This document shows positions 5,776 to 28,603 of a stretch of 28,603 nt of DNA, piece after piece. How positions within the stretch are numbered: position 1 is the stretch's first letter; each line of letters starts with the position of its first letter. The DNA is taken from positions 1-28,603 of the forward strand of contig DIEQ01000012.1 of assembly GCA_002418705.1 (NCBI GenBank), in the 5' to 3' direction. The position numbers were made by a program, and so were the translations under genes. The DNA is from Mageeibacillus sp. UBA5770 (lineage in GTDB: Bacteria; Bacillota_A; Clostridia; Saccharofermentanales; Saccharofermentanaceae). The notes under the pieces were generated by a model. That model worked only from the letters and a program-made list of their open reading frames with translations, had not been told where the DNA came from and did no database searches.

Positions 5776-5786
5776 TTTATTTGTCC

Positions 5787-7744: not shown

Positions 7745-7769
7745 ATATTTCCTTTCCAAAAAATAGAAA

Positions 7770-7924: not shown

Positions 7925-7955
7925 TACTTCATATTAACTGGTTCAAAATCCTTTT

Positions 7956-8321: not shown

Positions 8322-8345
8322 AATTATTTCTCCTATAAAAAATAA

Positions 8346-10634: not shown

Positions 10635-10701
10635 TTGATATATGGTATGAATTCCAGCCAATTTTATATACATCTCCCCAAAAACTGTTGCCGTTATTCG
10701 G

Positions 10702-10857: not shown

Positions 10858-10932
10858 GTGGACAAGATTTTACAGGAGCAGGTCGAACAGTTCGGTCTGC
10901 CCTGAAAATGGAATCCTGTTTTAAGGGAATAA

Positions 10933-12707: not shown

Positions 12708-12733
12708 CAATATATTTTGAAAGGATGTGAATT

Positions 12734-13099
12734 ATGTCAAAGAACAAAACAAAAAGAGTGTATGTGGTTATTAACAGCGACAATCGACTTGAAATCGAGG
12801 CAATCTGCGTCAGCGAAGAATCTTTGAAAAAATACCTGAATGAAGAACGCCTTGTGCCTACGATTGAGAGGGTAAAAACATTCGCAGATGAGGAATACGA
12901 AATATCTCTCCATATACCCAAAATGAAATATGAGGTGTTATATGCTGATATCGATATCGCCAGAACAAAATCAGCAACATACCCAAAGGTGTGGGTTGGA
13001 TATGGCGATCCTTACGAGGGAGTGTACTTTTTCGAGACCAAAGATGAGGCAGAAAAATGGGCGGCCAAGATTGATATTGAAGATTGCCCCCAGAGTTAA
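12734..13099 (+). CDS. Unknown 121-aa protein
   Basis: A small soluble alpha/beta-looking protein that begins MSKNKTKRVYVVINSDNRLE. The middle contains YEISLHIPKMKYEVLYADID, and the end has VYFFETKDEAEKWAAKID. The last segment is typical of small proteins where an acidic helix packs on a sheet. GAAAGGATG lies about 9 nt before the ATG. It lies at the head of a run of small unknown genes (12.7-15.1 kb) on the same strand. No family is recognised. Confidence 0.55.
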   Translation: MSKNKTKRVYVVINSDNRLEIEAICVSEESLKKYLNEERLVPTIERVKTFADEEYEISLHIPKMKYEVLYADIDIARTKSATYPKVWVGYGDPYEGVYFFETKDEAEKWAAKIDIEDCPQS

Positions 13100-13146
13100 T
13101 AACCGTTCGTAAATACAAGTTGCGGTAATGGGAAAGGAGGTCAATT

Positions 13147-13167
13147 ATGAAAATTAGATCCGGGTAA
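13147..13167 (+). other. Very strong ribosome-binding site before a 6-codon ORF (probable frameshift)
   Basis: AAAGGAGGT (13133-13141) is the best Shine-Dalgarno sequence in this part of the window, and it lies 5 nt before ATG 13147. That frame stops after six codons (MKIRSG). Dropping one A from the AAAA run at 13150-13153 would continue the start codon into the open frame that includes 13175-13615, giving MKLDPGKYQMTILKD and onward. Either the gene is frameshifted, or the short ORF is a leader peptide, or the base is a sequence error. Confidence 0.5.
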
Positions 13168-13282
13168 ATATCAAATGACTATTCTTAAAGACATTCAGGT
13201 ACAGAGGAGTCAAATAAGAAAACAGTGCTGGCTGTACCAGCAAAATATTCTTTTGCCTTATTGGCAGAAAGGAAGTGTTCAA

Positions 13283-13615
13283 ATGAAGAATGATTTAACA
13301 AAAGAACCCATGTGGAGTGATGTATGTGATATGTTTGATATCGAAAAGGTTAAACGAACTCACAGTAATTTGAGTAATCCTTTGTTTCCAGTGGCGCACA
13401 GGCTGGAGCATCATCTTGAAAGGGATGCAAAACCATCCGCAGAAACACTGTCTCTCACAAATCGCTTTTTCAACTTTTTTCAAAGAGATGATTCGGTTTC
13501 TGATGCAAGGAGATATTTGTTCGTTCTTTATAGTGAAGATTATAGCAAATTTGCACTGAAGATGATGCTGTTAGTTCAAATGATCATCAGCGAGTATCCT
13601 GAATACTATTACTGA
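13283..13615 (+). CDS. Unknown 110-aa protein, possibly the 3' part of a frameshifted gene
   Basis: The frame is open from about 13151 to 13615. I give ATG 13283 as the safe start, because GAAAGGAAG lies 7 nt upstream. The protein from there starts MKNDLTKEPMWSDVCDMFD and ends IISEYPEYYY. It is helical, with no motif I recognise. The upstream open part (KLDPGKYQMTILKDIQVQRS and onward) reads like protein too. A strong ribosome-binding site at 13133-13141 would serve it if one base were missing from the A run at 13150-13153. A hairpin terminator follows at 13623. Confidence 0.5.
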   Translation: MKNDLTKEPMWSDVCDMFDIEKVKRTHSNLSNPLFPVAHRLEHHLERDAKPSAETLSLTNRFFNFFQRDDSVSDARRYLFVLYSEDYSKFALKMMLLVQMIISEYPEYYY

Positions 13616-13622
13616 TGCAATG

Positions 13623-13660
13623 GGGGGAGATTCAATATCAACTCCCCCTCTTATTTATAT
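13623..13660 (+). terminator. Hairpin terminator after the 110-aa gene
   Basis: A perfect 7-bp stem GGGGGAG / CTCCCCC (13623-13629 and 13642-13648) with a 12-nt loop is followed by TCTTATTTATAT. It lies 8 nt after the stop codon at 13615, on the transcribed strand. The T-rich tail is interrupted, so termination may be partial. Confidence 0.55.
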
Positions 13661-13708
13661 CCAGAAAAGTTCAGTTGTTGTAAACATTTTATGGAAAGGA
13701 TAACAAAA

Positions 13709-14104
13709 ATGATGAAAAAAAGAAAAACGAAATATGAATATACAGAAGAGCAGTTAGTGTGTCTGGCAAAAGTTGGAAATCGATGGCAAAAGTATGATAA
13801 AGACCGTGTCTACTTTGATGTAGAAGATGTCCTGCACTGGCTCGGATATAGATGGTCTTACTATAATACAGGCAATGTCAGCTCTGCGAGTTTAAACGGA
13901 GAGAAGATCAGCAACTATTCTTTTAACAGAACTTACGCTTCGATTGAAAAGGTATGGTACGATGTGAGTGAGGGATGTTATATGTTTTATCTTGATGTTG
14001 TATCAAGATATACACCGAGTTTATCAGATACCATAGATGCCATCGAAAAGGCAGCGGCAGTCATAGAAGAACAGAAACCAACTCTTAATCAGGTTGATAA
14101 TTGA
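13709..14104 (+). CDS. Unknown 131-aa protein
   Basis: A start at ATG 13709 is preferred, because GGAAAGGA lies 8 nt upstream. An in-frame ATG at 13691 overlaps that ribosome-binding site. The protein begins MMKKRKTKYEYTEEQLVCLA, and has an aromatic middle (YFDVEDVLHWLGYRWSYYNT) and a C-terminal helix (DTIDAIEKAAAVIEEQKP). The pattern of Tyr and Trp residues suggests a small beta-rich binding domain with a terminal helix. No family is recognised. It sits between two other small unknown genes on the same strand. Confidence 0.55.
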   Translation: MMKKRKTKYEYTEEQLVCLAKVGNRWQKYDKDRVYFDVEDVLHWLGYRWSYYNTGNVSSASLNGEKISNYSFNRTYASIEKVWYDVSEGCYMFYLDVVSRYTPSLSDTIDAIEKAAAVIEEQKPTLNQVDN

Positions 14105-14207
14105 GCGGAGCTTATGGATATCTAAAAGAGCAACTATCTGAAATCGACAGAGTGTAGAATTGTATCAATACAAAAGTTAAATAACAGAATTAGAAAGGAA
14201 CATGTTA

Positions 14208-14351
14208 ATGAGTAAGAAAAAAACAAAATGCGTGTTGCCCTCCGAACAATGGTTGAAAAAAAACGGACTTAAAGAATTAGTCAGGGTAATGAAAATGCAC
14301 CCTGAAAAATTTGCTCATATCCAACAAGAAATAAACTTACAAGAAAGGTGA
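14208..14351 (+). CDS. Small 47-aa accessory protein
   Basis: AGAAAGGA lies 8 nt before ATG 14208. The protein begins MSKKKTKCVLPSEQWLKKNG and contains LVRVMKMHPEKFAHIQQE. A pattern of LPS.xWL.xNG...L....xxPExFAHI is one I associate with small proteins near plasmid and phage integration genes, but I can name no function. It ends 8 nt before the next gene, and its last codons contain that gene's ribosome-binding site (GAAAGGTGA), which supports it being translated. Confidence 0.6.
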   Translation: MSKKKTKCVLPSEQWLKKNGLKELVRVMKMHPEKFAHIQQEINLQER

Positions 14352-14359
14352 AGTAAAAT

Positions 14360-15082
14360 ATGGAACCATTAAAAAGCTTAAAAAATAATATTATCGCGGA
14401 TGCTCTTTCAAAAGAATCTGGTGTTTTTTCTCGAATTGAGGCAGCTACGCCTGCGATAAAAACCGGAAAATTATCAATGATAATATCCTTCCAAGGAATG
14501 GAAAAAATATGCATTCCATCACATGAATTAAATGTAAATGCAAAAGTTACGGGATTAAGTGTCAGATCAGCAGCAACAAGGATAATAGAGTATGACTTTG
14601 AGCACCCATCACAAATCGAAAAGATGTTACTTGAGTGTGCTTGGGCTTTAGGGTCGGCATTTTTACTACGTTATCAGTTTTATCCTTACCAAAGCGATAA
14701 AGGATGGACAGGGCGAGAACCGGGGGCGGGCATAACGAGATTGTTCGAAGGCAGTCCATATCACCTTGCTTTTAGTGGGAGTTTAAGTGTTGGGGAAACA
14801 GATCCAGCATTGACTGATTTGGCGATAAAGCATGGGTATTGGTTGTGGGATTTCAAACCGACTTTCAACCATCATCTGCCAGAGGCAGATAACCCAATAT
14901 GGAAGATGTGGTATGCAGAGGATCCAACTCGAAATCAGAGCGGTGGAAGAGACACAGAATTACCAAACTGTGTAAAAGTGCAATCAATGGAACAGAGACA
15001 AGAAAACGGAATAATCGGAAGACTGACAGACTATGATTTAACGCGAATGTATGTTGAAGAGAGTATTCTTCGTAACGAGTAA
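14360..15082 (+). CDS. Unknown 240-aa protein
   Basis: A soluble protein whose first 100 residues hold hydrophobic helices and strands (LSMIISFQGMEKICIPS; IEKMLLECAWALGSAFLLRY). The second half is rich in Trp, Gly and Pro (KGWTGREPGAG; HGYWLWDFKPTFNH; PIWKMWYAEDP). There is no transmembrane topology that I would defend and no recognised motif. The gene starts 8 nt after the 47-aa gene and precedes the excisionase-like gene by 36 nt, so it may be element cargo expressed with it. Confidence 0.55.
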   Translation: MEPLKSLKNNIIADALSKESGVFSRIEAATPAIKTGKLSMIISFQGMEKICIPSHELNVNAKVTGLSVRSAATRIIEYDFEHPSQIEKMLLECAWALGSAFLLRYQFYPYQSDKGWTGREPGAGITRLFEGSPYHLAFSGSLSVGETDPALTDLAIKHGYWLWDFKPTFNHHLPEADNPIWKMWYAEDPTRNQSGGRDTELPNCVKVQSMEQRQENGIIGRLTDYDLTRMYVEESILRNE

Positions 15083-15118
15083 TAGTCTTAAATGTCAGCT
15101 TAGAAATACTCTTATATT

Positions 15119-15406
15119 ATGAAAGATAACCAAGAAACAATTAAACATTCTCTCTGTCCCTACCCTGTCTATCTCCCGGACGGTCGACCGGCCCCCTTGA
15201 TCCTCACCGAGGAGGAGTTGCTTTTTCTGCTCCGGCTCGATAAAGACTCAGGGGGACCCAAGACCCCGGCATATACACTTGCTTATTACCGTAAACAGGG
15301 ACTACGTGGAATCCAGATCGGAAAGCGGATGAGGTATTACCTTCCCGATGTTGTCGAATTTCTGGATAAACAATCGGATTGGACGAACCGGAAGAATATT
15401 TCATAA
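15119..15406 (+). CDS. Excisionase-like helix-turn-helix protein
   Basis: A 95-aa protein. The core (about 29-85) follows the MerR/excisionase-type winged-helix pattern: LTEEELLFLLRLDK, then a helix TLAYYRKQGLRGIQI, a basic turn GKRMRYY and the helix PDVVEFLDK. Such proteins bend attachment-site DNA and set the direction of integrase-mediated recombination. The gene sits 66 nt upstream of the phage-type integrase in the same orientation, the usual xis-int order. No good Shine-Dalgarno sequence precedes the ATG, so the start is less certain. Confidence 0.7.
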   Translation: MKDNQETIKHSLCPYPVYLPDGRPAPLILTEEELLFLLRLDKDSGGPKTPAYTLAYYRKQGLRGIQIGKRMRYYLPDVVEFLDKQSDWTNRKNIS

Positions 15407-15472
15407 TTCCACTTCGCAGCCCTCTCGTGCAGCGGTAAAGTATGCCCGTCAATTTATTAAGTTTGGTGATAT

Positions 15473-16711
15473 ATGAAATTTAGACACGGTATTACAATTG
15501 TTAAGGATAGCCGTCCCGGTCGTCAAAAACCGTGGTTAGCCCGTTGGTTTGGAGAATATGATCTGCGTACCGCCTCCAAGAAACGCCATTGTCGTTCGTT
15601 TTCCCGCCAGTCAGACGCTGAGAACTATGCCCGAAAATTACAGGATGAGCTGGACTCCGGCATCACCACAGAAAACAGGGAAATCACCCTACAGGAACTC
15701 TGTGAGAAGTTCTTCAAATGCAAACAGGGGAAAAAGCACTCAACCTGCATTGGTTACGGACAAACCCTTTCTCATTTTCAGGAGCATTTCCATCCCAGTA
15801 TCCCGATTCGAAAAATTCGGCAGGAAGATGCGGAACTATACATCCAGTCGGTTGGATTCAAAAACAATTATCACGCCAGAAAGAAAACAGAAATCTCCGA
15901 ATCCACACGAGCCAGACATCTACGTCATTTGAAAGCCCTGTTCAACAAGGCGGTGGAATGGGACTATCTTACAAAAAATCCCTTCAAATCAATCACCCTT
16001 GGGAAAATCAGAGTCAAGCCTTGGTATTACCTCAGTCCTGATGAATTCAAAAATATCCTGCGAGTCCTTGATAACCTGCCGATTAATCCCAACAGGGCTG
16101 AGCAGGATAGGCACAGAATCATCCGTCTCAAGGCGTTTTACCTCACGATGTATACAACAGGGCTTCGATTCGGGGAAGCCGTCAACTGCACTTTCACGGA
16201 CAACATTAATCTTGAAGAAAGAACCATACATCTGTTTAACAGGGAAGGCACAGACCAAATGCCCTCATTCGATATGAAAGATTATGAGGCACGGACTATT
16301 TATCTGCCGGATATCACGATTGAGGTACTGAAAGAGTTGGAAAAGATTGCGGACAGTCCCTATGCCTTCTTAAATAAAGATATCTGGCTCCGTGTTCAAG
16401 GCAGATGGAGGAATATCAGAAATGAAGGCAGAGAAAAAGAGTGGAGCAGTAAGGAAATGATGGGGTCGGCAAACCATGCATTTCTGCGATACTGTAAAAA
16501 AGCAGGGATTCAGACCGTTAAGAAACTCCATCTCCACTGTCTGAGAAAGTCCTATGGCACGAATATGGCACGGCTGAACACGCCTCCTAAAACTCTTCAG
16601 GAATGGATGGGGCACTCCTCCCTGAACGTTACGATGAATTATTATGTACAAAACCTCGATGAGAATAAAAAGAAGGCACTGGAGAATTTGAATGGCTTGA
16701 TGTCTGGGTGA
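15473..16711 (+). CDS. Phage-type tyrosine integrase
   Basis: A 412-aa integrase with three parts: an N-terminal arm-binding-like region (about 1-65), a SAM-like core-binding domain (about 70-180), and a catalytic domain (about 185-405). Catalytic residues are R232 in TTGLRFGEAV, a Lys candidate K269, H355 and R358 in HLHCLRKS, H381 in MGHSSLNVTM, and the nucleophile Y390. It inserts and excises the element by recombination between att sites. The integrase gene usually lies at the end of such an element. No duplicated att sequence could be found by eye. The nearest tRNA gene is 4.8 kb downstream, beyond the signalling operon. Confidence 0.9.
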   Translation: MKFRHGITIVKDSRPGRQKPWLARWFGEYDLRTASKKRHCRSFSRQSDAENYARKLQDELDSGITTENREITLQELCEKFFKCKQGKKHSTCIGYGQTLSHFQEHFHPSIPIRKIRQEDAELYIQSVGFKNNYHARKKTEISESTRARHLRHLKALFNKAVEWDYLTKNPFKSITLGKIRVKPWYYLSPDEFKNILRVLDNLPINPNRAEQDRHRIIRLKAFYLTMYTTGLRFGEAVNCTFTDNINLEERTIHLFNREGTDQMPSFDMKDYEARTIYLPDITIEVLKELEKIADSPYAFLNKDIWLRVQGRWRNIRNEGREKEWSSKEMMGSANHAFLRYCKKAGIQTVKKLHLHCLRKSYGTNMARLNTPPKTLQEWMGHSSLNVTMNYYVQNLDENKKKALENLNGLMSG

Positions 16712-16928: not shown

Positions 16929-18527
16929 TCAAGAATACTGCAACCCATCTTTAGTTGGGGTGAACGTCACTTGATCTGCAGATACCCTGTTAACTTTTCC
17001 ATTCGCGGATTTTAAATAGACTAATCCTGATTCCATACCAATAGTTAAGCCTATATCAGCAGGCAGAATGTCCATATTATCATATCCCAATTCTTTCAGA
17101 TTGTTCCTGAGGAATTCGATTGTAGAAACAATGGCACTGGCGTTATCGAACCCATTTACGCTTGGGCAAATGGCTCTCATTTGGCTGGCACTGGCATGCT
17201 CCAGCCCCCACTCCGAAACCAGTACAACAAGTTTGTCATTATTACTGCGTCCATGTTTTTCCAGCTCGACCGCCATTTGTTGTACTAGTCTCGCTAGACC
17301 TGTGAGATACAGATGCCCGCCTGCCCTTTGCTTTATCTGGGCGCTTCCAATATGAAGAACGGAGATCTTCGTTTTCATATCACCCGCAAGAATAAATGGA
17401 AAATCCATAGCAGGATTGCCATGATCATATATAGAATCACCAAGAATGACGGTCTGGCAAGAACTGTCTACGACACCCTTGGTCTTTCCTTTGTTACAAG
17501 ACAGAACCAAACCTCTCGAATCGCTATCCCATCCAACTTCGCCGTGATTTGTCGCGAACGACCTAACACTTAGTGATCGAAACGCCCCTCTCTTGTCCGT
17601 GTAATCAATCACAAGTTCCTCTTTGTTGTTCTCAGGAAGAATTTTGGAAGTAACGTTTGCCTGAGCCATTTCCCCAAGCATCCTCCGAGTTGATGGATTA
17701 CAGAGAAAAGAAGCGGGGGCATTGGCCTGATATCGGCAGGCAATATATTCGAATACTCCTCCAATGTGGTCAGGGTGATTATGAGTAACAATACATGTTT
17801 CAACATCCTTAACTGATATCCCAAATTCTCTGAGAATCTTTAGAAATCTAAATCCCGGATCGACTACAACGACACGATTCCGATGCCTCTCTTTACATAC
17901 AGGGAACACCATAGCATACGCACCGCCAGGTACATCGAAAAAACTGGGATACCACGAGTTCCAGCGTCGAGCCACCACAAAGAGCGGCTCTTTAACATTC
18001 TTGAAAACGAAGTTCTGCTCCGAAATATTTGAGGTATAATAAACTTCAATTATATCTTCGTGATTTTTGACCTTATTATCAATAATATATGCTGAAATAG
18101 CGTGATTAATTTCTATGTCAGTTTTACCTTGGTTTATCGGAGAGAGAATTACTTCCGCAACAGACGCAAGCAGATCCATTTCTTCGGGCTTTTGGAACAC
18201 TCGTGCCGCCCCAAGCTTTTGAAAACTGGTTTTGTCAGCCTCATCGCTCACATATGCGCTCAAGACGATAACGGGAATAGGCGGATTACCATGCTCCTTC
18301 TGACGTAAAGTTCTTAGAAATGTCAATCCATCCATTTTAGGCATTTTCTTGTCGAGGATAATGCAGTTACAGGACCAATTACGTTTTTCGAGCAAACAAA
18401 GCGCTTCTTTCCCGTCTGATGCTTTGATGGCATCCCAGCCTATATCACTAAAGTGCGCACAGATTTGTTCTCGAATCACTTTGATATCATCAACAATAAG
18501 TATGGTTCGCTTACAGGATTTCGGCAT
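16929..18527 (-). CDS. Response regulator: REC domain fused to a metallo-beta-lactamase-fold hydrolase
   Basis: A 532-aa protein. The receiver domain (about 7-128) has the acidic pair D13/D14, the phospho-acceptor D59 in IILDKKMP, S90 and the conserved K113. After a linker, the metallo-beta-lactamase domain (about 185-445) has THNHPDH (248-254) for two metals, a further His in ATNHGE (H328) and the bridging Asp in LGDS (D364). So the output is an enzyme and not a DNA-binding domain. Phosphorylation would switch a hydrolase, whose substrate (nucleotide, RNA or small molecule) cannot be read from sequence. The gene starts 3 nt after the histidine-kinase stop, so the two form an operon. No signal peptide is present, so it acts in the cytoplasm. 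The last 75 residues are unassigned. Confidence 0.8.
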   Translation of the reverse strand: MPKSCKRTILIVDDIKVIREQICAHFSDIGWDAIKASDGKEALCLLEKRNWSCNCIILDKKMPKMDGLTFLRTLRQKEHGNPPIPVIVLSAYVSDEADKTSFQKLGAARVFQKPEEMDLLASVAEVILSPINQGKTDIEINHAISAYIIDNKVKNHEDIIEVYYTSNISEQNFVFKNVKEPLFVVARRWNSWYPSFFDVPGGAYAMVFPVCKERHRNRVVVVDPGFRFLKILREFGISVKDVETCIVTHNHPDHIGGVFEYIACRYQANAPASFLCNPSTRRMLGEMAQANVTSKILPENNKEELVIDYTDKRGAFRSLSVRSFATNHGEVGWDSDSRGLVLSCNKGKTKGVVDSSCQTVILGDSIYDHGNPAMDFPFILAGDMKTKISVLHIGSAQIKQRAGGHLYLTGLARLVQQMAVELEKHGRSNNDKLVVLVSEWGLEHASASQMRAICPSVNGFDNASAIVSTIEFLRNNLKELGYDNMDILPADIGLTIGMESGLVYLKSANGKVNRVSADQVTFTPTKDGLQYS

Positions 18528-18530: not shown

Positions 18531-20945
18531 TCAATCTCCAATTGTTTTCAGTGGGAGTATTACACGGAATGTAGCCCCACCGCATTTATTCTTTGGGTCA
18601 TGTTCAATTTTCCCATGGTTGCTATCGGTTATTCTCTGAATCCAAAAGAGCCCCATCCCCATTCCTCCTTCAATTCCCTTTGTCGAGAAATAAGGGGTTC
18701 CCAAGTGCTTTTCCGTTTCAGCGTCAATTCCATTTCCATCATCTGCAACCTCCACTATGAATCTTTCTTGATCAATAGCCTCCAGACGTAGAACGACCCT
18801 TCCAGGTCGACGTGCTTCTAAAATCGCATCGTGCGCATTCCGTAGCAGATTAATCAATATCGTCTGGAATTCACTTTTATTCATTCTGACTTCGATAGAG
18901 CTCTTGATGAAATCAAGCTCAATATTGTTGTTCTTAAAACGCTCCTTTACAATGGCGGTAATCTGCTCTGCCATTTCATCGGCATGGAAAGTTTCCACTT
19001 TCTGCTTGCGATCGCGAATTTCTCTAAAGTTCTCAATTGCACTAGTTGCAAGATTAACCTGCTTGGACAGGTCTCTCCCGAGAAGTCGTATTTGGGGGTC
19101 CGAGGCAAGGTTCCTAATTCGTGACTCAATAACCTGAATGCCTTGCAAATATGTGTTAAACTCGTGAGCAATTCCAGAAGCAAGAAATCCCATCTCTGCC
19201 GCGCGTAGCATGAGACCTAAATAAGATTCATTATCATACTTCACGCTAATGGCAATCAGTCTTCCGATTAAGTCAAAGAGACGCTCATCGCTCTCCGTAA
19301 AATAATAGGGGATGACATTTTTATTCTCGACTTTCAAGACTCCAATATCCTCATCTCCAATTCTTAGCGGTATTGAGTACAATGATTTAAATTTTCTTTC
19401 AGCACTTCCATCGTATACGATATCGTCCCATTTGCCAGGTCCTTTTCGCTCAGCGCTGTCCGCCAGGTCCTGGTATGATCGGATATTGAACGACCGATTT
19501 TTTTGCAGGACAAGACATGTCAGACCAGTTGATTTACGGTAATCTTGGTATCCAAACCCCTTCAACTTGTTCTCCTTATCCTCATCGATTCCCACAATTG
19601 CACGTAACGACAGATTTCTTTGATCCGTAACGACAAAAAGCGAACAGAATTCTGCGTGTAGGAGACGACGACATTCAATCAGTAGGCTTTTAAATAGTTT
19701 TGGGTGACCAAATTCTCGAAGCAGTATCTCGGATATGGCTGGCAATGCTACGTCATAACGCCTCTTTTCGATGCGTTGTGAAACCACAAGGTTTGCAAGA
19801 ACGCCTGCCATAACATTAATCTGACGCTCATCAATTTGGTCGAAATATTGATACTTGGCCTCAACAGTTCGATTCTCGCACTTTAGAACACCGATTGGCT
19901 TGTCTCCAGCAAAAAGTGGGGTCATATACACACATTTGAAATCTTGTTGTGCTTTAGCATTACCGCCGTAAATTAAAGCATCCCAATTCCCTTTGTGATG
20001 ACCTTCGGAACTGCCCAATAGCTCCTCATAGCTTCGTGCATTAAATGGTTTTTTACGGTAAAGAACCCAGGGAGTTACACCTTGACCTATTTTTGAGGGA
20101 TCATAGTTTCTCAAATCGTAAGAAGGTATATGGGGTATCTGTTCGTAGTGCAGAGTGCTTTTTTCTTTTCCTCTCTCTTCAGAGATTCTTTCAAGCGTTA
20201 AACTATCTCCTTGCTCATCAACCAGGAACAAGGCACATTTTTGAGCATTCATAATTGTGCGAGTATAATCAAGAAACTCTTGTAAAACATCGTCAGTGAT
20301 TTCTATATCGTTATCTTTGATTTCAGGTGAAACATCTTTTTTACTTACTTCGGGAAGAAACTGTCCGGCTATATCAGAAAGAGATGTACAAAGTCTGTCA
20401 TTTTCGGCATAGGCACTGGAGGATCTTTCAAAGGCCAAACGTACAGCATAGATAAGAGCGTCAACTTTTCCTCCATCAAGAACGTCGGAGGCAGATTGCG
20501 GAACTATAAGAAAACCGATTGTTTGATTTTGGCTATCAATTATCTTAGTTGCACACATATTGGGAGTAAGATCGCTAAATGAAGCATATGATAGTCGGAG
20601 TTTATCTCGCAGTTGAGGATCATTGTCAATCTGGAAATCCACTTTTTGTTGTTTTGTCAAAAGATCTAAGGTCGGACTCTGATTTAAAGATATCTCTATG
20701 ATAGAACACGGTTCCGGATCATAGATCGTTCCGCCTGCGTAAACCCAGAAACTCAGTTCATTCTTTTCGGGCCCAGAATAGAAACGTCGAATAAGAAGGA
20801 ATGCCTGATGCAATTTCCAGTGACACGCGAATCTGCGAATAAGTTCATGCTGACCTGGATGGGGGTCTGCATGGGGATCTTGTACTTGAGAAAGGTCGCA
20901 CACTACCTTCATGAGATCTATAGCAAGGAACTCGATAGGGTTCAC
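18531..20945 (-). CDS. Soluble sensor histidine kinase with duplicated GAF-like domains
   Basis: An 804-aa protein. The N-terminal part (about 1-195) is a poorly conserved sensor-like domain. Two GAF-like domains follow at about 215-390 and 400-570. They carry a matching insert (NARSYEEL and KGNWDALIYGG in one; NIRSYQDL and GKWDDIVYDG in the other) and the same strand ending IGVLK.EN, so they are an internal duplication. The phospho-acceptor is H594 in GIAHEFN. N703 lies in LLRNAHDA, and DDGNGI (735-740) and GGMGMGL form the ATP site. The start is GTG at 20945 with GGAGG upstream; the overlapping ATG is followed at once by a stop codon. No membrane segment is present, so it senses a cytoplasmic signal. 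Its partner is the REC-hydrolase directly downstream. Confidence 0.85.
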   Translation of the reverse strand: MNPIEFLAIDLMKVVCDLSQVQDPHADPHPGQHELIRRFACHWKLHQAFLLIRRFYSGPEKNELSFWVYAGGTIYDPEPCSIIEISLNQSPTLDLLTKQQKVDFQIDNDPQLRDKLRLSYASFSDLTPNMCATKIIDSQNQTIGFLIVPQSASDVLDGGKVDALIYAVRLAFERSSSAYAENDRLCTSLSDIAGQFLPEVSKKDVSPEIKDNDIEITDDVLQEFLDYTRTIMNAQKCALFLVDEQGDSLTLERISEERGKEKSTLHYEQIPHIPSYDLRNYDPSKIGQGVTPWVLYRKKPFNARSYEELLGSSEGHHKGNWDALIYGGNAKAQQDFKCVYMTPLFAGDKPIGVLKCENRTVEAKYQYFDQIDERQINVMAGVLANLVVSQRIEKRRYDVALPAISEILLREFGHPKLFKSLLIECRRLLHAEFCSLFVVTDQRNLSLRAIVGIDEDKENKLKGFGYQDYRKSTGLTCLVLQKNRSFNIRSYQDLADSAERKGPGKWDDIVYDGSAERKFKSLYSIPLRIGDEDIGVLKVENKNVIPYYFTESDERLFDLIGRLIAISVKYDNESYLGLMLRAAEMGFLASGIAHEFNTYLQGIQVIESRIRNLASDPQIRLLGRDLSKQVNLATSAIENFREIRDRKQKVETFHADEMAEQITAIVKERFKNNNIELDFIKSSIEVRMNKSEFQTILINLLRNAHDAILEARRPGRVVLRLEAIDQERFIVEVADDGNGIDAETEKHLGTPYFSTKGIEGGMGMGLFWIQRITDSNHGKIEHDPKNKCGGATFRVILPLKTIGD

Positions 20946-21533: not shown

Positions 21534-21539
21534 CTTTAG

Positions 21540-21613
<74 letters not shown>

Positions 21614-21908: not shown

Positions 21909-21936
21909 TTGACAAAAATCGGCGTTAATCTACAAT
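21909..21936 (+). promoter_or_regulatory. Sigma70-type promoter of the PspA/AAA+/vWA operon
   Basis: TTGACA (21909-21914), a 16-bp spacer, then TACAAT (21931-21936). It is a near-consensus match in the right orientation and about 215 bp before the first large gene of the operon, so transcription should start near 21943. Confidence 0.6.
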
Positions 21937-22150
21937 AATGACAGACGATTTTTTGAAACGGAGGAGATTTGTTTTGATCTTAATTAAGGAGGGCCGAAAG
22001 GTTATAGATGACCCAACGGTTCCCCGGGAGAAAAAGAGTCGATTTTAAACGTGGCTAAAGGAGGTAACTCGTTGCTGATAAGATGGTTAAAAAAAGAAGT
22101 CTCAGTTGGCAAGAGTTTGGAAACAATAACTTCGTCTGAAAGACGCAGGG
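21937..22150 (+). promoter_or_regulatory. Operon leader with three Shine-Dalgarno sites and short ORFs
   Basis: Between promoter and first gene are strong ribosome-binding sequences, each with a short frame. GGAGG at 21960-21964 precedes TTG 21974 (24 codons, to 22048). GAAAGG precedes ATG 22008 (16 codons, to 22058). AAAGGAGGT at 22057-22065 precedes TTG 22072 (31 codons, to 22167), which overlaps the start of the 283-aa gene. The stop of the second frame lies inside the third ribosome-binding site. This may be a leader controlling translation or relics of a decayed gene. The gene at 22151 itself has no good ribosome-binding site, so coupling to the third frame is plausible. Confidence 0.4.
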
Positions 22151-23002
22151 ATGCAGGCAGGATTTAAAGACTACATTTATGAGGCCTTTAACGCCCGGCC
22201 GCTGGGAATGCTGATTCCGCCGAATTGGATTGGGTTGGGACTTGTCGGGATGCTGGGATTCCTTTACCCTGGTTTTTGGGTTTTGGGAGCAGGATTGGAG
22301 ATTGGATATTTATTTATGATGTCCAACAATCCTCGGTTTCAGCGAATTGTCAAAGCTCAACTACAAAGCCAGACACACCGGGAACAATATACCAAATTAC
22401 AGGGATTAATCAGCCAATTGGAGGCCGACCAGCAGCAGCGATACCATGCCCTTGAAGATCGCTGCCGGGGGATTCTCAAGCAGCTTTCCTTTTCGGATAA
22501 TTCGGCGGCGGCTTCTGCCCAGGGAGAAGGACTTCGCCGGCTTTTATGGATTTTTTTGCGATTGCTTTTAACCCGTCAGGCTATTTTGCATGCACTCCAG
22601 GAATCGCTGGGGCATGGGTCTAAATCATTGGATATACGAATTAATGAACTTAACGAAAAACTGAAGGCCCAGGCGCTGGGTGACAATCTGCGAAAGAGTT
22701 TTCAATCGCAAGCGGATATTCTTCGCCAACGAAAAGAAAAACAGAACGAAGCCCGAGAAAAACTTGTCTTTTTGGAAGCTGAATTGGTTCGCATCCAGGA
22801 GCAGGTTGAGTTGCTCCGTGAACAGGCGGTGATTTCGACCGGGTCTGAAGTTGTTTCCACCCGGATTGACTCTATCGCAGAGACATTGGGCGATACCACG
22901 CGGTGGATCAAAGAGCAGCAGCAAATTTACGGCGGGATTGAAGATCTGCTCGAAGAGCCTCCGCCGCTTTCTGCCGCTCCAATCGAAAGGCAATCACAAT
23001 GA
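22151..23002 (+). CDS. Membrane-anchored coiled-coil protein of the PspA/AAA+ operon
   Basis: A 283-aa protein. Residues about 24-57 form a hydrophobic hairpin (PPNWIGLGLVGMLGFLYPGF, then an apolar stretch ending in MM). A cytoplasmic helical region follows, with a second apolar patch at 129-140 (RLLWIFLRLLL) and a long coiled coil at about 160-260 rich in Lys, Glu and Gln. It ends in a Pro-rich tail. It could tether the AAA+ ATPase encoded next to it to the inner membrane. The two genes overlap by 4 nt (ATGA), so they are co-translated. The start ATG has no good Shine-Dalgarno sequence and may be coupled to a leader ORF. The family is not recognised. Confidence 0.7.
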   Translation: MQAGFKDYIYEAFNARPLGMLIPPNWIGLGLVGMLGFLYPGFWVLGAGLEIGYLFMMSNNPRFQRIVKAQLQSQTHREQYTKLQGLISQLEADQQQRYHALEDRCRGILKQLSFSDNSAAASAQGEGLRRLLWIFLRLLLTRQAILHALQESLGHGSKSLDIRINELNEKLKAQALGDNLRKSFQSQADILRQRKEKQNEAREKLVFLEAELVRIQEQVELLREQAVISTGSEVVSTRIDSIAETLGDTTRWIKEQQQIYGGIEDLLEEPPPLSAAPIERQSQ

Positions 23003-24729
23003 AAACGCAACTGCCGCCTTGGGCAAACGAGATGTGCGATTTGTTCCGCTCCGGCTCAACCTCGCAGTTTATCCTGCATGGCAATGTATTCGATGTCGTT
23101 CCCGCTGTCTTATCCAAAGGGCCGGCGGCATTATCCCTGCAGGAATACCTGCAGGAGGTTATGTTTGCCGGATATGACGTGGTACTTCGTTATGACAGGG
23201 GAAAAGGCATTCGCGCTGTCCGCGGGGAAAAAGACTGGTCGGAATGGTTTGAGCAGGTCAGCGGATTGGGTGCCGGGATGATGTCCAGCGTTCGCGAACC
23301 CGGCAAAGCGCTGGAGCTGATTGACCGGTATCTGCTGCGTACGCTGAATCTGCAGGCGATACAAAATCCCGAAGCAGGGCAGCGTAAAATAGCCGTTATT
23401 ATTGATTTCGCCGAGTTTGTCGTACCGCAAGGAAATTCGCTTCAATTGGGCGGTGAGTTCAGCACCAATGTCGTTAAGACCCTTGGTTGGGCCAATGACC
23501 CCGCGATTCTAAGGTCAAACATCGTTACCGTCCTGATTACGGAAGGCCTGCATGATTTGAATGAACTGGTCGTCGAAAATCCTCACAGTACAAAACTGAA
23601 GATTCCCTTGCCCGGCGAAGACGATGTGCGGGAATACCTGCAGATGCTTGTTGAGCAGACGTTTCCGGACTTGCCGGACAAATGTGATGTTTCGATGGAT
23701 ATTCTTGCTCGCCGACTGACAGGCTTGAGCCGGGTAGGGGCGCGAACGGTGCTTTCGCTGGCATTAAAAAAGGACGGACGAATCACCGCCGACTGGCTCA
23801 GCAAGATGAAAAAGAACCTCATTGAGCGGGAGTGCCAGGGGTTGCTGGAGTTTCTTGAATCCCCTTACACCCTGGATCATGTTGCCGGCCATGAAGCCGC
23901 CAAAACATGGCTTCGTGAAGATACAACACTGCTGCGCAGAAACGTCTACCATGCTTTGCCGATGGGGTATCTGATTACCGGCAGGATCGGAACCGGCAAA
24001 ACGTTTGTTGTGCAATGCTGGGCCGGTGAACTTGGAATTCCCTGCCTGGTGTTCAAGAATTTTCGCGACCGCTGGGTTGGCGCAACCGAATCGAATCTTG
24101 AAAAAATATTTGCCATTTTACATGCACTTGGACAGGTTGTTGTTTTTGTAGATGAGGCCGACCAGGCCGCCGGCAAACGCGAGAGCGGCGATGGCGACAG
24201 CGGCCTTTCCGGGCGCATTTACGCAATGCTGGCAAAAGAAATGTCCGATACTCGAAATCGCGGACGGATTATCTGGGTTTTCGCGACAAGCCGGCCGGAT
24301 TTGCTGGAAGTGGATTTAAAACGACAGGGAAGACTGGATGTTCATATTCCTCTTTTTACACCGCAGGGTAGTCAGGAAATGCGGACATTATTTTGTGCCG
24401 TGGCAAAAAAACTCCGCTTTCCGTTGACCGAACAGGATATTCCCGACCTGCCGGAAAAGATGGTTTTGGGCGGCAATGAAATAGAAGGCGTTCTGGTACG
24501 GGCGTTGCGACTTTATGAACTGGCGGCGGACCCCAAGCCTTCGTTGAAAGATGTTTTAGCTCAGACAATAAATCAGGTGCGTCCCAACGCCCATACCAAA
24601 AAGCTGGAATATATGGATCTTATCGCCGTCCGGGAATGTACGGACGAGCGGTTTTTGATTCCGCAATTTCAGAATATCGCTCCCGAACAACTGGAACAGC
24701 GGATCGAGGAATTGAGGAGATTTGTGTAA
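22999..24729 (+). CDS. Classic AAA+ ATPase with N-terminal degenerate domain (Ycf46-like)
   Basis: A 576-aa protein. The C-terminal AAA domain (about 288-530) has Walker A GRIGTGKT (328-335), a pore-loop-like FKNFRDRWVGATESN (about 352-366), Walker B VVFVDEAD (381-388), and the sensor-1/arginine-finger region ATSRPDLLEVDLKRQGRLD (429-447). This is the FtsH/Cdc48/Vps4 branch that pulls proteins apart with ATP. The first 260 residues look like a degenerate P-loop/AAA-like domain: IAVIIDFAEFV (131-141) takes the Walker B place, and there is no Walker A. That arrangement is like Ycf46-type ATPases. Given a PspA polymer gene in the same operon, a Vps4-like remodelling role is an attractive inference. 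It overlaps the gene before it by 4 nt and ends 1 nt before the next. Confidence 0.82.
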   Translation: MKTQLPPWANEMCDLFRSGSTSQFILHGNVFDVVPAVLSKGPAALSLQEYLQEVMFAGYDVVLRYDRGKGIRAVRGEKDWSEWFEQVSGLGAGMMSSVREPGKALELIDRYLLRTLNLQAIQNPEAGQRKIAVIIDFAEFVVPQGNSLQLGGEFSTNVVKTLGWANDPAILRSNIVTVLITEGLHDLNELVVENPHSTKLKIPLPGEDDVREYLQMLVEQTFPDLPDKCDVSMDILARRLTGLSRVGARTVLSLALKKDGRITADWLSKMKKNLIERECQGLLEFLESPYTLDHVAGHEAAKTWLREDTTLLRRNVYHALPMGYLITGRIGTGKTFVVQCWAGELGIPCLVFKNFRDRWVGATESNLEKIFAILHALGQVVVFVDEADQAAGKRESGDGDSGLSGRIYAMLAKEMSDTRNRGRIIWVFATSRPDLLEVDLKRQGRLDVHIPLFTPQGSQEMRTLFCAVAKKLRFPLTEQDIPDLPEKMVLGGNEIEGVLVRALRLYELAADPKPSLKDVLAQTINQVRPNAHTKKLEYMDLIAVRECTDERFLIPQFQNIAPEQLEQRIEELRRFV

Positions 24730-24730
24730 A

Positions 24731-25393
24731 ATGGGATTGCTGGAGAAATTACAGGCTCTCGGCTGTCAATTGAAATTGGTGCAGATGATTCCCAAGACAT
24801 CGACGACCCCGGAGAAAATTGAGACGCGAAGCGTCACCTTGCAGGAATTAACCACCGAACTTCAGGCTGAAAATGTTCGAATATTGGCCGAATCGCCGGT
24901 TGAACTGACAATCGCATTTGAGAAAATTTTTGCAACAGCGGGGATCATCCCTCAGTCTAATAAATGGACGATAGAGCGTTTAAATGAGTTGCTGCGCACT
25001 GCGCCTTTCAATAAAATGGATCCGAGGGGCCTTCAAAAGGCAGTGTTGGAACGATTGGCGGCCGAGAATGTATCCACGGAAGATATTATCAAGGATGCGT
25101 TGGCAAAAGATCAGGCATTGGATGCATTTGAGACGTTTATCGGCAAAAAGATGAAAGACCGATTCTCTGCCAGGCAAATGCGTCTGATGGAGATAGAAAA
25201 ACAAATAGGAGTGCTTGAGCAGGAGAGAAATCGATTGCAGCAGGAGGATCGCGAAGAGCCTTTGCGGTTATCTGAGTGGCACACACGGAAGCAAATGTAT
25301 GAGAAAGAAATATTGGAAAGCGTGGATTTTCTGATGAACTGCAATGAGCACAATTCAGGAAAAAGTAGATCTGCGCAGGGTATTACTGAATAG
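24731..25393 (+). CDS. Coiled-coil protein of the PspA/AAA+ operon
   Basis: A 220-aa protein from ATG 24731 (MGLLEKLQALGCQLKLVQMI). GAGGAG lies about 12 nt upstream, inside the end of the AAA+ gene. A TTG three codons earlier (24722) is a less likely start. Residues about 30-130 are helical with a winged-helix-like feel (WTIERLNELLRTAPFNKMDP). Residues about 135-195 form a charged coiled coil (MRLMEIEKQIGVLEQERNRL). No transmembrane segment is present. It may be an adaptor between the AAA+ ATPase and PspA, judged only from its place between their genes. The family is not recognised. Confidence 0.7.
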   Translation: MGLLEKLQALGCQLKLVQMIPKTSTTPEKIETRSVTLQELTTELQAENVRILAESPVELTIAFEKIFATAGIIPQSNKWTIERLNELLRTAPFNKMDPRGLQKAVLERLAAENVSTEDIIKDALAKDQALDAFETFIGKKMKDRFSARQMRLMEIEKQIGVLEQERNRLQQEDREEPLRLSEWHTRKQMYEKEILESVDFLMNCNEHNSGKSRSAQGITE

Positions 25394-25427
25394 AAAAGGA
25401 CACACATTTCCTTTGAAAGGATGAAGT

Positions 25428-26192
25428 ATGGCGATTTTGGCACGGGTAAAAAGATTGTTTTCAGGCTTTATCAGCCTTTTCATCAGTGGTATTGAGAAAC
25501 GCAATCCGGAAGCTTTGATAGAGGCGGCTCGTCAGGAGTTCCGCGATCGAATGGCTCAGTATAATCTGGCGCTTGCTCAAATGGCAGGGATCGCCGAGCG
25601 TCTCAAGGCACAAATCACGATGAAAGCCAATAAGGCCAAGGACCTTGAAAGACGCATTATGGCCAATCACCAGGCGGGAAACCTTGAATTGGCCGGAAGT
25701 CTGGCACGCGAACTGCAGGAACTCCGTTCCGACCTGGAGACGGATACCCGGGAATTAAACGATACCGAAGAAGCATATCAAGGCAATCTCCGTCAGGCAA
25801 AAGTGGCTCAAAAAGAATTCGAAGATAAAATTCGCCGACTGGATAAGCAGTTATCGCAGGTCAAAATTAAGGAAGCTCAGGCCGAAGCGGCCAGCGCTTT
25901 GGGAAATGTGGCATTCAAAGTCGGGGATATGGGCGACACAATGAAAACGGTTGAGGAAGTGCTGGCCAAGCGGTATGAGGTTTCCGCCGGCAAGGCCAGA
26001 GTCGCCAAGGATATCGTCGATATAGAGCATGTTCGTGAAAAGGAAAATGAACGAAAGGCGCTGGAGCAGAATGCCTTGGCGGAATTTCTGGCAAGCCAGG
26101 GTATTCAGGCGGCGGCTGCGGCGCCGGCTCCAAAAGACTCGATTATGAATAAAGAAATAGGTCCCGCCCAACAAAGCGGTCAGGGAAGCTGA
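25428..26192 (+). CDS. PspA/IM30 (Vipp1)-family protein
   Basis: A 254-aa protein. The N-terminal amphipathic helix (about 2-24, ARVKRLFSGFISLFISGIE) is the membrane-binding helix of the family. Long helical hairpins follow (about 27-150), with the typical spaced Ala, Gln and charged residues, and then a further helical region to about 225. The last 30 residues are an Ala/Pro-rich tail not usual for PspA. PspA and Vipp1 are bacterial members of the ESCRT-III superfamily. They polymerise on the cytoplasmic face and protect or remodel the inner membrane. AAAGGATG lies about 6 nt before the ATG. No pspB, pspC or pspF is nearby, so it is not a classic psp operon. An intercistronic hairpin follows the stop. 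Confidence 0.88.
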   Translation: MAILARVKRLFSGFISLFISGIEKRNPEALIEAARQEFRDRMAQYNLALAQMAGIAERLKAQITMKANKAKDLERRIMANHQAGNLELAGSLARELQELRSDLETDTRELNDTEEAYQGNLRQAKVAQKEFEDKIRRLDKQLSQVKIKEAQAEAASALGNVAFKVGDMGDTMKTVEEVLAKRYEVSAGKARVAKDIVDIEHVREKENERKALEQNALAEFLASQGIQAAAAAPAPKDSIMNKEIGPAQQSGQGS

Positions 26193-26220
26193 GTTATCTA
26201 TTCCGGATGGATAGGATAAC
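26193..26220 (+). promoter_or_regulatory. Intercistronic hairpin after the PspA gene
   Basis: GTTATCTATTCC and GGATAGGATAAC form a stem of about 11 pairs with one bulged G. It starts right after the PspA stop codon and no T tract follows. It is more likely an mRNA processing or stability element, setting PspA level against the downstream periplasmic genes, than a terminator. Confidence 0.4.
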
Positions 26221-26266
26221 GGTGCGGGAGTTTAAATATTGAAACAGGGAAAGGATAAGGTGACTT

Positions 26267-27991
26267 ATGGAATCGCAGGAACGTAAAATTACACCCTTTG
26301 GCATGATTATCTCGGTCTTATTGATTTTCGGGCTGGTCGGCCTCGGCGCCTATATGGTTTGGGATCGCTATATGGCTCAGCAAAAGTTGCCTGTCATGGG
26401 CGAAAACGCAGCGCCGCAAGCGGAAGCTGCCCGTGTTGAAGAGCCGGATACCACTGGCGTAACGACAGTTAAGGAATATAAATATGTTCCTGCCGAGCGT
26501 CTTTCGGCGGTTAAAGGTGTCAGTCAGTACAAGTGGGACGCCGATCAGAAGGTTCTTCGCTTTTCATACAATGTCTGGGCCGGATGGCTTCCCGTCATTG
26601 CCGCCAATAAGGGAATAAAACCCAATGACGAAAGCGTTTTCTTTAAGAAATATGGGTTTCGCGTTGAGATGGTTCTGATGGACGATCCGGTCACCGCCCG
26701 CGATGCCTTTGCCGCCGGTGAAGTGCATACCTTGTGGGGAACTGCGGATATGATTGTCCTTTTTGCCCCGGAACTCATCAGGGATTCGCGTACTTCGCCG
26801 CGTGTTGTTCAGCAGGTGGACTGGTCCAACGGAGGCGACGGTATTGTGGTGCGAAATTCAATCAAGTCCGTTGCGGATTTACGCGGCAAGACCATTGCGC
26901 TGGCTCAAAACTCGCCGAGCGAATACTATTTGACCTCGCTGCTGCTCAGCGCCGGCATGAAACCCGCCGATATTCGCGCTAAATATACGGCTACGGCATT
27001 CGAAGCCGCGGCGGCGTTTGTCGCGGATAAATCTGTGGATGCCTGCGTTTCGTGGGCGCCCGATATTTATAATATTCCTGATCGTGTTGCCGGAACGCGG
27101 ATATTATGCAGTACCGCTGAATCCAATAAGCTGATCGCAGATGTGTATGCTGTTCGTGCGGATTTCGCCAAGGATCATCCTGAAGTTGTGGAAGGGCTTG
27201 TGGCGGGGATTTTCGAAGGTATGGATTTGGTTAAGGAAAAACCCGAAGAAGCCGCCAAATGGATGGCAGACGCCTTTGGAATGAAGCCCGAAGAAGTTAT
27301 GGGTATGAGAAACGACGCCCATCCGACGAATTTTGCGGAGAATGTTCAGTTTTTCCTGAATGCTTCCAATCCTACCAATTTTGAACGCACCTGGCAGAAT
27401 GCCAGCTATGTGTATCGGGAACTTGGCAGAATTAACAGTCCCGTGCCGTTTGATCAGGTAATGGACTTTACAGTCATTCAAAAGCTGCAAAAGGCGGGGA
27501 CGTTTGATCATCAAAAAGATGAAAGCGTAGCGACCTTTACACCCGGCAGTTATAAAGTTATTCAGGCCGAGTCGCCTATTCTGACGCAGACAATTCGCAT
27601 CAATTTTTATCCGAATTCGTCGAATCCCTATGAGGCTGCACGGGACAAATTCGGTAATGTTGTTTCGGGTAAATTATACGATCCCGGTGTGGACGCCACA
27701 CTGGAACAGGTCGCTCGTTTATCCGGGCAATTTGACCGGGCCGTTATTTTGATTGAAGGCCATACGGATTCGAGCATGCAGGGACGCGTTCCTATGCAGG
27801 CCGTGAAGGATTTAAGCCTTGCCAGGGCAGAAGCGATCAAACAGTCGCTGATTGACAAATTTAAATTTGATCCGAATAAGCTTATCGTACAGGGGGTCGC
27901 CTGGGATAAACCGGCCGATTCGAAAGATCCGTTAAACCATGCGCTGAACAGGAGGGTTGAAATCAATGTCTATCCGCCCGAACAACAATAA
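26267..27991 (+). CDS. Membrane-anchored solute-binding protein fused to an OmpA-like domain
   Basis: A 574-aa protein. Residues about 11-32 form a signal anchor (FGMIISVLLIFGLVGLGAYM). Residues about 95-435 are a periplasmic solute-binding domain of the NitT/TauT (SsuA/THI5-like) type, with YNVWAGWLPVIAANKG at the start, the hinge-region phrase VADLRGKTIAL, and a helical C-lobe. From about 445 to the end is an OmpA-like peptidoglycan-binding domain: IRINFYPNS, then IEGHTDSS, LSLARAEAI, and the terminal NRRVEI. So one protein binds a ligand and the cell wall. No ABC permease or ATPase gene is nearby, which suggests a sensor and not a transporter. Its last 26 nt overlap the vWA gene. Confidence 0.85.
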   Translation: MESQERKITPFGMIISVLLIFGLVGLGAYMVWDRYMAQQKLPVMGENAAPQAEAARVEEPDTTGVTTVKEYKYVPAERLSAVKGVSQYKWDADQKVLRFSYNVWAGWLPVIAANKGIKPNDESVFFKKYGFRVEMVLMDDPVTARDAFAAGEVHTLWGTADMIVLFAPELIRDSRTSPRVVQQVDWSNGGDGIVVRNSIKSVADLRGKTIALAQNSPSEYYLTSLLLSAGMKPADIRAKYTATAFEAAAAFVADKSVDACVSWAPDIYNIPDRVAGTRILCSTAESNKLIADVYAVRADFAKDHPEVVEGLVAGIFEGMDLVKEKPEEAAKWMADAFGMKPEEVMGMRNDAHPTNFAENVQFFLNASNPTNFERTWQNASYVYRELGRINSPVPFDQVMDFTVIQKLQKAGTFDHQKDESVATFTPGSYKVIQAESPILTQTIRINFYPNSSNPYEAARDKFGNVVSGKLYDPGVDATLEQVARLSGQFDRAVILIEGHTDSSMQGRVPMQAVKDLSLARAEAIKQSLIDKFKFDPNKLIVQGVAWDKPADSKDPLNHALNRRVEINVYPPEQQ

Positions 27992-28603
27992 GGGATCAGC
28001 CAGAAATCTGCCGGTCATTATTTTCGGCATTATAGTTGTTCTTGTGCTGATCAATCAATTGAACAGTCCCCAAAGGCACAGGCATGGCTCTACGCCTGTT
28101 TCGACGGGATCTGCTCCTGCGGTGACAAAGCCTGCCATGAATCCGCTTCTGGAGATGCTCAATGATTCCTCCGGGCAGATGAAAACTCCAAGCGAGGGCA
28201 TTGCCATTGGTGTTGCTATTGACGTTTCCGGAAGTATGAACGACAGCGTCAAAGACACCGATGGGCTTGTACGACCCAAAATAGAAATTGCCCGCAGGTG
28301 TGCATTGGATATTTTAAAACAGGCCGACTCTTTTGCACGCGGACATGAGGATCAGCACATTGAAGTCGGGATATTTGAATTCAGTTCGCGTCAGAATCGG
28401 CCGTCATGCCGACAAGTGATACCGTTTGGTCCGATACAGACCGCCGCCGCCGACCAAGCTGTCAAGAGAATGCAGCCGGAGGGCGGAACTCCCATCGGTG
28501 ATGCCATGATTACGGTCAAGCAGAAAATGAACGCCACAGCATTGAGCCGTCAGCATTTGCTTGTAATTACAGACGGCGAAAATAATCAGGGGTATGATCC
28601 CGG
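27966..28603 (+). CDS. Membrane-anchored von Willebrand A-domain protein (3' end outside the window)
   Basis: The partial gene gives 212 codons before the window ends. The start ATG 27966 lies inside the end of the OmpA-fusion gene, with GGAGG 10 nt upstream. The protein has a short basic N-terminus, one transmembrane segment (about 15-30, LPVIIFGIIVVLVLIN), a Pro/Ser/Thr-rich linker, and a vWA domain from about residue 78. The metal-ion-dependent adhesion site is intact so far: DVSGS (86-90), T175 in GGTPIGDA, and D203 in ITDGEN. The domain would face the periplasm and bind a protein partner through a divalent metal. It is the last visible gene of the operon. Confidence 0.85.
   Translation, partial: MSIRPNNNKGSARNLPVIIFGIIVVLVLINQLNSPQRHRHGSTPVSTGSAPAVTKPAMNPLLEMLNDSSGQMKTPSEGIAIGVAIDVSGSMNDSVKDTDGLVRPKIEIARRCALDILKQADSFARGHEDQHIEVGIFEFSSRQNRPSCRQVIPFGPIQTAAADQAVKRMQPEGGTPIGDAMITVKQKMNATALSRQHLLVITDGENNQGYDP

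Follow-up and report, generated by a model that had tools for sequence, protein, structure and literature searches.

PspA and Vipp1 are relatives of ESCRT-III, and in the classic Psp response PspA inhibits PspF. Which ATPase turns over PspA/Vipp1 polymers in bacteria is an open question. Passages of Liu et al. 2021 (PMC8281802) leave it unclear whether PspF plays the part of Vps4 or Vipp1 has an equivalent ATPase, and passages of a 2024 structural paper (PMC11746142) suggest chaperones or PspF for the turnover of PspA/Vipp1 polymers. The closest described systems stand in passages of the genome-context study of Ravi et al. 2024 (PMC11237479; example records OGG56892.1 and AEY64321.1), in which PspA is associated with an AAA+ protein with an inactive N-terminal AAA domain, a transmembrane (TM) protein, an ABC importer and a PBPB-OmpA protein, and in which ATP-dependent remodelling linked to solute transport is proposed. 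Band-7 and helix-turn-helix genes are named as pspA neighbours in Acidobacteriota by Popp et al. 2022, in passages where no AAA+ protein of this kind was met. An operon of this kind was analysed here in a 28,603-nucleotide (nt) stretch of Mageeibacillus sp. UBA5770 (contig DIEQ01000012.1), referred to below as the window. Its six genes encode a membrane-associated coiled-coil protein (TMcc), an AAA+ ATPase, a second coiled-coil protein (cc3), PspA, a solute-binding protein fused to an OmpA domain (SBP-OmpA) and a vWA protein. The operon offers a candidate motor and a candidate handle for PspA turnover, and the turnover question is thereby reducible to a two-protein test.

The six open reading frames (ORFs) lie on the plus strand at 22151-28603, and the gene calls are right. 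Genes 1 and 2 overlap by 4 nt (22999-23002), gene 2 stops at 24729 and is separated by a 1-nt gap from the ATG of gene 3 at 24731, and genes 5 and 6 overlap by 26 nt (27966-27991), all as stated in a preliminary description of the window. Pfam families above their cut-offs are found in gene 2 (AAA), gene 5 (NMT1 and OmpA) and gene 6 (vWA) and in neither gene 1 nor gene 3. The earlier identification of genes 2, 4, 5 and 6 as classic AAA, PspA, solute-binding-OmpA and vWA proteins is upheld by these and by profile matches. It is likewise borne out that this is not a classic psp operon, as the domain search found no pspB, pspC or pspF family among the six genes. As in the operons of Ravi et al., PspA shares an operon with an AAA+ protein whose N-terminal AAA domain is inactive. 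The association of PspA, AAA+ and importer is already in print in passages of that study (PMC11237479) and is not new; the preliminary description had rightly supposed that similar gene sets might have been noted in genome-context surveys. Its further statement that no functional description exists holds in part: no experimental study of PspA with this AAA+ protein was found among titles and abstract openings in open-licence PubMed Central, but the gene set and the idea of ATP-dependent remodelling are printed in passages of PMC11237479. The additions made here are a D1-D2 model of the ATPase, the identification of PspA and TMcc as its most constant neighbours with an optional importer, and the co-distribution of the ATPase with a PspA tail.

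A scan of one genome per species yielded 113 stretches with 95 AAA+ relatives, of which the best 80 were kept as loci. The hosts of the relatives include Acidobacteria, Planctomycetes, Gemmatimonadetes, Chlorobiales, Gammaproteobacteria, Krumholzibacteriota, Fibrobacter and others. The closest among the 80 loci, L001 and L002, show 80% identity and come from Phycisphaerales and Sedimentisphaerales metagenome-assembled genomes. Genes were clustered on 81 sequences (the 80 loci and the window), in which many contigs are short, so that the counts are lower bounds. Greedy longest-ORF calling was replaced, having recovered the AAA+ gene at no more than 61 loci among these sequences. The AAA+ cluster is present in all 81 sequences, PspA in 58, TMcc in 53, SBP-OmpA in 52, the ABC ATPase in 40 (a cluster that also takes in some ABC ATPases outside the operon), the permease in 28, cc3 in 19 and vWA in 9. 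When 6 kb are available on both sides (35 loci), PspA is found in 32, TMcc in 30, SBP-OmpA in 27, the permease in 20, the ABC ATPase in 17, cc3 in 9 and vWA in 4.

Two genome draws were made regardless of the system, 248 genomes from the class to which G001 belongs and 297 from the phylum that includes G009, with draw centres that carry the system. The AAA+ gene was found at 1e-60 in 10 and 36 genomes, SBP-OmpA at 1e-40 in 13 and 26, and PspA (PF04012, 1e-5) in 28 and 87, respectively. In the 297-genome draw, 35 of the 36 AAA+ genomes hold PspA (exception, G392); the corresponding Fisher value, 2e-20, ignores kinship and is not used as proof. In the 248-genome draw, PF04012 finds PspA in seven of ten AAA+ genomes, and the family profile finds it in a further two (G062 and G067). 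A deeper search of 52 PspA genomes lacking a first AAA+ match added six full-length-like AAA+ proteins (G279, G300, G323, G399, G432, which is cut by a contig end, and G454, a weak match); these have PspA by construction, and the resulting 41 of 42 is biased because the deeper search covered PspA genomes only.

From the 46 AAA+ genomes of the draws, 30 AAA+ loci were fetched, mostly for divergence. PspA is present in 18, TMcc in 16 and SBP-OmpA in 8 of the 25 loci with 5 kb flanks. The importer is not part of the core, because in 9 of these 25 loci the AAA+ gene has only PspA and TMcc as partners. PspA, TMcc and AAA+ make up the core of the system, with the importer and vWA as additions; certain distant relatives of the AAA+ protein are found in other contexts. 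The conserved co-occurrence beyond close relatives that the preliminary description had called for is present, with PspA and a linked AAA+ gene found across phyla. The partner-less AAA+ relatives are L111, L112, L116, L117, L119 and L128, with a weak ABC ATPase some kilobases off in L116 and L117.

The AAA+ protein matches the classic AAA family PF00004 at 7.9e-22, and at least 7996 relatives were found at E values up to 1e-3 among the 7999 scored candidates listed. It models as a tandem D1-D2 protein that resembles Rix7 and p97, with a Vps4-like D2, a D1 without a P-loop and no N-domain. The D2 domain has intact Walker A and B motifs, the arginines and an aromatic pore loop that reads W-V-G, as in Vps4-type ATPases, and its fold agrees with the Vps4 likeness proposed in the preliminary description. 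Vps4 itself combines an N-terminal MIT domain with a single AAA domain; residues 1-278 of the operon protein instead model as a degenerate AAA domain, and the protein is therefore not classed as a Vps4. Since the profile match between D1 and D2 alone is weak (probability 0.7%), though collinear, the claim that they are kin rests on the fold comparison. A defence reading was dropped, because the PADLOC match to IetA (2.8e-10) sits in the shared AAA region and no second Iet protein was matched among the 8 proteins scanned.

TMcc shows one hydrophobic stretch by a simple hydropathy count. Its AlphaFold2 model (predicted local distance difference test score, 89.0) contains helices at residues 24-38 and 41-59, followed by long helices. 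No Foldseek match to TMcc was better than E 0.15, and structure comparison gave helical matches of middling Z. TMcc and cc3 were considered as candidates for a second ESCRT-III protein; their hhalign probabilities to PspA are 4.9% and 2.7%. In 12 genomes (L211-L214, L216-L218, L221-L224 and L227), PspA and TMcc are paired on the stretch fetched, with neither AAA+ nor importer genes, and the deeper search found no full-length AAA+ protein in these genomes. The PspAs of these pairs lie in one well-supported clade and have altered tails such as KQI-x-AG.

Gene 4 alone reaches 1e-5 and 25.7 bits against PspA_IM30, under the 33.9-bit cut-off. It is assigned to the PspA family, as the preliminary description had proposed, because a profile built from 55 members of its family finds solved Vipp1/PspA chains, the best match being to a Vipp1 chain at 2e-24 over profile positions 2-227. 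The 55 aligned PspAs consist of the body, a variable linker and a C-terminal K-x-[LIM]-G-P motif, in which G245 and P246 are conserved in at least 90%. Across the relative loci, 52 of 58 AAA-linked PspA ORFs carry [KR]-x-[LIM]-G-P within their last 34 residues, as do 2 of 826 other genes. Among the six misses, the upstream of the two frames in L001 and the first PspA copy in L004 look like odd reading frames; the others are in L015, L043, L075 and L078. In L001 (12393-13144), pspA is split into two overlapping frames in an otherwise ordinary operon, by a frameshift or an assembly error.

The tail was also scored by genome, and related PspAs without AAA+ mostly lack it in both draws. It is present in 24 of 39 AAA+ genomes with a readable tail and in 2 of 44 genomes without AAA+ in the 297-genome draw, in which no tail was obtained from G279 and G284 (AAA+), G452 and G456. 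The two positives without AAA+, G288 and G537, hold other system genes on short contigs. Inclusion of variant tails (G-[GAS], or an ending K-[ST]-[LM]), which were set after seeing the data, gives 35 of 39 and 6 of 44. In the 248-genome draw, the tail is present in 9 of 9 AAA+ genomes and in 1 of 21 without AAA+, one of these 21 tails being a masked fragment (G103). Only G098, G113, G067 and the 21 negatives are new, the other six positives having been part of the pattern-defining alignment. The second and third PspA copies of 9 of the 21 AAA-less genomes, one of them cut, carry the motif in no case. At 1e-30, G079 and G161 gave no AAA+ match in the deeper search, which yielded partial matches or none in the other AAA-negative genomes of this draw; we take the partial matches to be of FtsH- or Ycf46-like size. 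The tail is kept where PspA and AAA+ lie about 1 megabase apart on the same contig (G352, G379 and G421) or on different contigs (G309, G321 and G098). Second PspA copies of the system type but without the tail occur in L288 (G079) and L292 (G161) and score 236 and 238 bits against the system PspA profile. PspA lies in another context, with a tail ending in ISSAFDEK, at L219:3529-7154 (G323) and L220:7695-10145 (G477), and is followed in L219 by a 941-residue protein with a weak ABC-ATPase match.

The operon is best read as encoding a Vps4-like unfoldase for which the C-terminal tail of PspA is the grip, and we hold this reading with slightly better than even confidence. The operon would then be a bacterial counterpart of ESCRT-III plus Vps4. 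PspA would polymerise on the inner face of the inner membrane, and TMcc, with its hairpin, would help to hold the D1-D2 ATPase, presumably a hexamer, at the membrane. We infer that the ATPase takes hold of the flexible K-x-[LIM]-G-P tail and threads or unfolds PspA subunits through the D2 pore, which would result in coat turnover. The SBP-OmpA and vWA proteins, permease and ABC ATPase would form an importer/sensor cassette that is coupled to the core in many lineages, though not in all. A more specific version is put forward tentatively and is somewhat doubtful: the nucleotide-free D1 ring may be the receptor for the PspA tail, as a functional analogue of the contact between the MIT-interacting motif (MIM) and MIT, and the importer/peptidoglycan sensor may switch ATP-driven coat turnover. 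The control of the coat by ligand binding at the peptidoglycan that the preliminary description supposed is likewise conjectural. If the unfoldase reading is true, bacteria too would have evolved, or retained, the coupling of an ESCRT-III-type polymer to a classic AAA motor.

Several observations weigh against tail-directed unfolding. The ATPase model contains no MIT domain, so a Vps4-type MIM contact does not apply. Six of the 25 divergent loci show no known partner near the AAA+ gene at the thresholds used; four of the six (G309, G321, G352 and G421) have a tailed PspA elsewhere in the genome. The motif was read from alignment A4 and set only afterwards, and this alignment already included six of the nine positives of the second (248-genome) draw and many of the first. 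Among AAA+ genomes, G523 has a linked AAA+ gene and no motif, G323 and G477 have the ISSAFDEK ending, G454 has neither motif nor variant, six have only the K-T-M/L ending and five only the G-[GAS] variant. Conversely, KQIGAG is present in four AAA-less genomes, and in G167, which gave no full-length AAA+ match, the motif is present on a system-type PspA that stands by itself on its contig. The genomes with distant PspA and AAA+ genes are also partly related on the PspA tree, on which G352, G379 and G421 lie close to one another and G309 lies close to G321. This tree, built on 61 PspA bodies, gives only 2 independent contrasts in AAA+ presence, far too few to test the association; the tail follows AAA+ in 1.7 of the 2 on average, or in 1.5 when the strict motif is scored. 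Because there are only two contrasts, the correlation between tail and AAA+ is inseparable from descent in these data, and kinship can explain much of the association.

The window breaks off inside gene 6, and the earlier statements that the operon has no ABC permease and is not a transporter rest on this cut and are not supported. L002 shows the same order as the window (TMcc-AAA-cc3-PspA-SBPOmpA-vWA), and there a BPD_transp_1 permease gene starts 3 nt after gene 6 and overlaps the following ABC ATPase gene. The contig of L001 ends within vWA, as the window does. To judge from L002, permease and ABC ATPase genes probably lie past position 28603 in the window genome too.

The importer could be the client of the ATPase, which would then act as an assembly or quality-control factor (segregase) for it, with PspA as a membrane-stabilising platform and not the substrate. 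The importer genes often lie between pspA and the tmcc-aaa pair (L031, L049, L105 and L122), and the AAA+ gene was found at 1e-60 in 21 of the 26 SBP-OmpA genomes of the 297-genome draw (24 of 26 by the deeper search) and in 9 of 13 in the other. We nevertheless regard a segregase as unlikely, as AAA+, TMcc and PspA occur with no other partner family in the nine divergent loci and in L042, L064 and L078, the 12 PspA-TMcc pairs lack both AAA+ and importer genes on the stretches fetched, and the conserved tail is on PspA and on 0 of 54 SBP-OmpA proteins.

PspA could also regulate the ATPase, which would work on another client, with the tail as an inhibitory or docking peptide. The inhibition of PspF by PspA is a precedent, and the co-occurrence of tail and AAA+ fits docking as well as substrate handling. 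This is quite improbable in our view: no other shared client was seen among the clustered families of the loci, the D2 fold and W-V-G pore resemble a Vps4-type threading motor, and PspF is an NtrC-type AAA+ protein, unlike the classic AAA of the operon (passages of PMC11237479). The permease and ATPase of L002 score best to TauC permease and taurine ATPase models, below the equivalog cut-offs, which would suit an ordinary taurine/sulfonate-type ABC importer operon sharing transcription with envelope-stress genes, without a linking machine. We hold this to be very improbable: the core recurs without the importer, in several gene orders and across phyla, and all of the genes are kept side by side in L121 and L122, whose AAA+ proteins show 32-33% identity to that of the window.

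The coordinates of the operon and of its surroundings are given in the table. The single promoter of the preliminary description is matched by a candidate site, but the scanned stretch contains three promoter-like sites against a shuffle mean of 2.7, which makes it weak evidence for an operon promoter. Integrated-mobile-element features occupy much of the left part of the window and include two further ORFs scanned without a family match. A histidine-kinase-type GAF-GAF-HATPase gene is divergent from the operon, 3 nt from a response-regulator gene, and its product is in no family shared with genes of the 80 relative loci.

Table. Features of the operon and its surroundings in the window
Feature	Position	Strand	Basis or remark
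Sigma-70-like promoter candidate	21909..21936	+	Consensus scan: TTGACA-16-TACAAT, 11/12 matches, upstream of operon
Gene 1, TMcc, predicted membrane hairpin (about residues 24-59) and coiled coil, 283 residues	22151..23002	+	Hydropathy, AlphaFold2
Gene 2, AAA+ ATPase, 576 residues	22999..24729	+	Tandem D1 (degenerate) and D2 (active-looking)
D1 region of gene 2, about residues 1-278	22999..23832	+	AAA-like fold without P-loop
Walker A of D2, GRIGTGKT	23980..24003	+	K334 kept in 98/98 aligned
Gene 3, cc3, coiled-coil protein directly before pspA	24731..25393	+	ORF call; start codon read from DNA
Gene 4, PspA/IM30 family (ESCRT-III superfamily), 254 residues	25428..26192	+	Pfam and family profile
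PspA tail motif K-E-I-G-P, residues 242-246	26151..26165	+	Alignment and pattern counts
Gene 5, TM anchor, NMT1/SsuA-type solute-binding domain and OmpA domain	26267..27991	+	Domain search
Gene 6, TM and vWA protein, cut by window end	27966..28603	+	Relative in L002 has 284 residues
Integrated-mobile-element features	246..16711
RuvB-like helicase (mobile-element stretch)	246..1211
Tyrosine integrase (mobile-element stretch)	1755..2693
DNA N6/N4 methylase (mobile-element stretch)	10933..12573
Tyrosine integrase (mobile-element stretch)	15473..16711
Response regulator fused to metallo-beta-lactamase-fold domain	16929..18527	-
GAF-GAF-HATPase protein	18531..20945	-
tRNA-Val	21539..21613

Among known systems, the FtsZl1/vWA/OmpA systems described in passages of Makarova and Koonin 2010 (PMC2875224) likewise combine a polymer protein of cytoskeletal type with envelope proteins that carry vWA and OmpA domains; the six genes here include no FtsZ-like protein or GTPase, and PspA and AAA+ instead. 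The classic Psp system (pspFABC) shares PspA, and the AAA+ protein of the operon is not NtrC-type. It also differs from the Rix7/NVL and p97/Cdc48 unfoldases in having no N-domain and a D1 without a P-loop. In archaeal and eukaryotic ESCRT-III/Vps4, as here, a polymer protein of the ESCRT-III superfamily stands beside a classic AAA motor, with a tryptophan in the pore loop. The operon differs in its tandem D1-D2 instead of a single AAA domain, the lack of MIT in the model, its bacterial hosts and the importer cassette, and to our knowledge K-x-[LIM]-G-P is not a known MIM. The operons in passages of Ravi et al. are alike by description in PspA, a TM-segment protein, an inactive N-terminal AAA domain and a fusion of solute- and peptidoglycan-binding domains, with the ABC genes adjacent in relatives. 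The vWA or von Willebrand terms have no match in the main text of that study, and cc3, the PspA tail, its co-distribution with AAA+ and the AAA-less PspA-TMcc pairs were not met in its main-text passages. These passages describe TM Snf7 homologues; if TMcc is meant, no profile homology between TMcc and PspA was found here. Apart from a specific candidate tail handle that was not found described in the parts of the literature searched, the locus represents a known kind of system, here with vWA and cc3.

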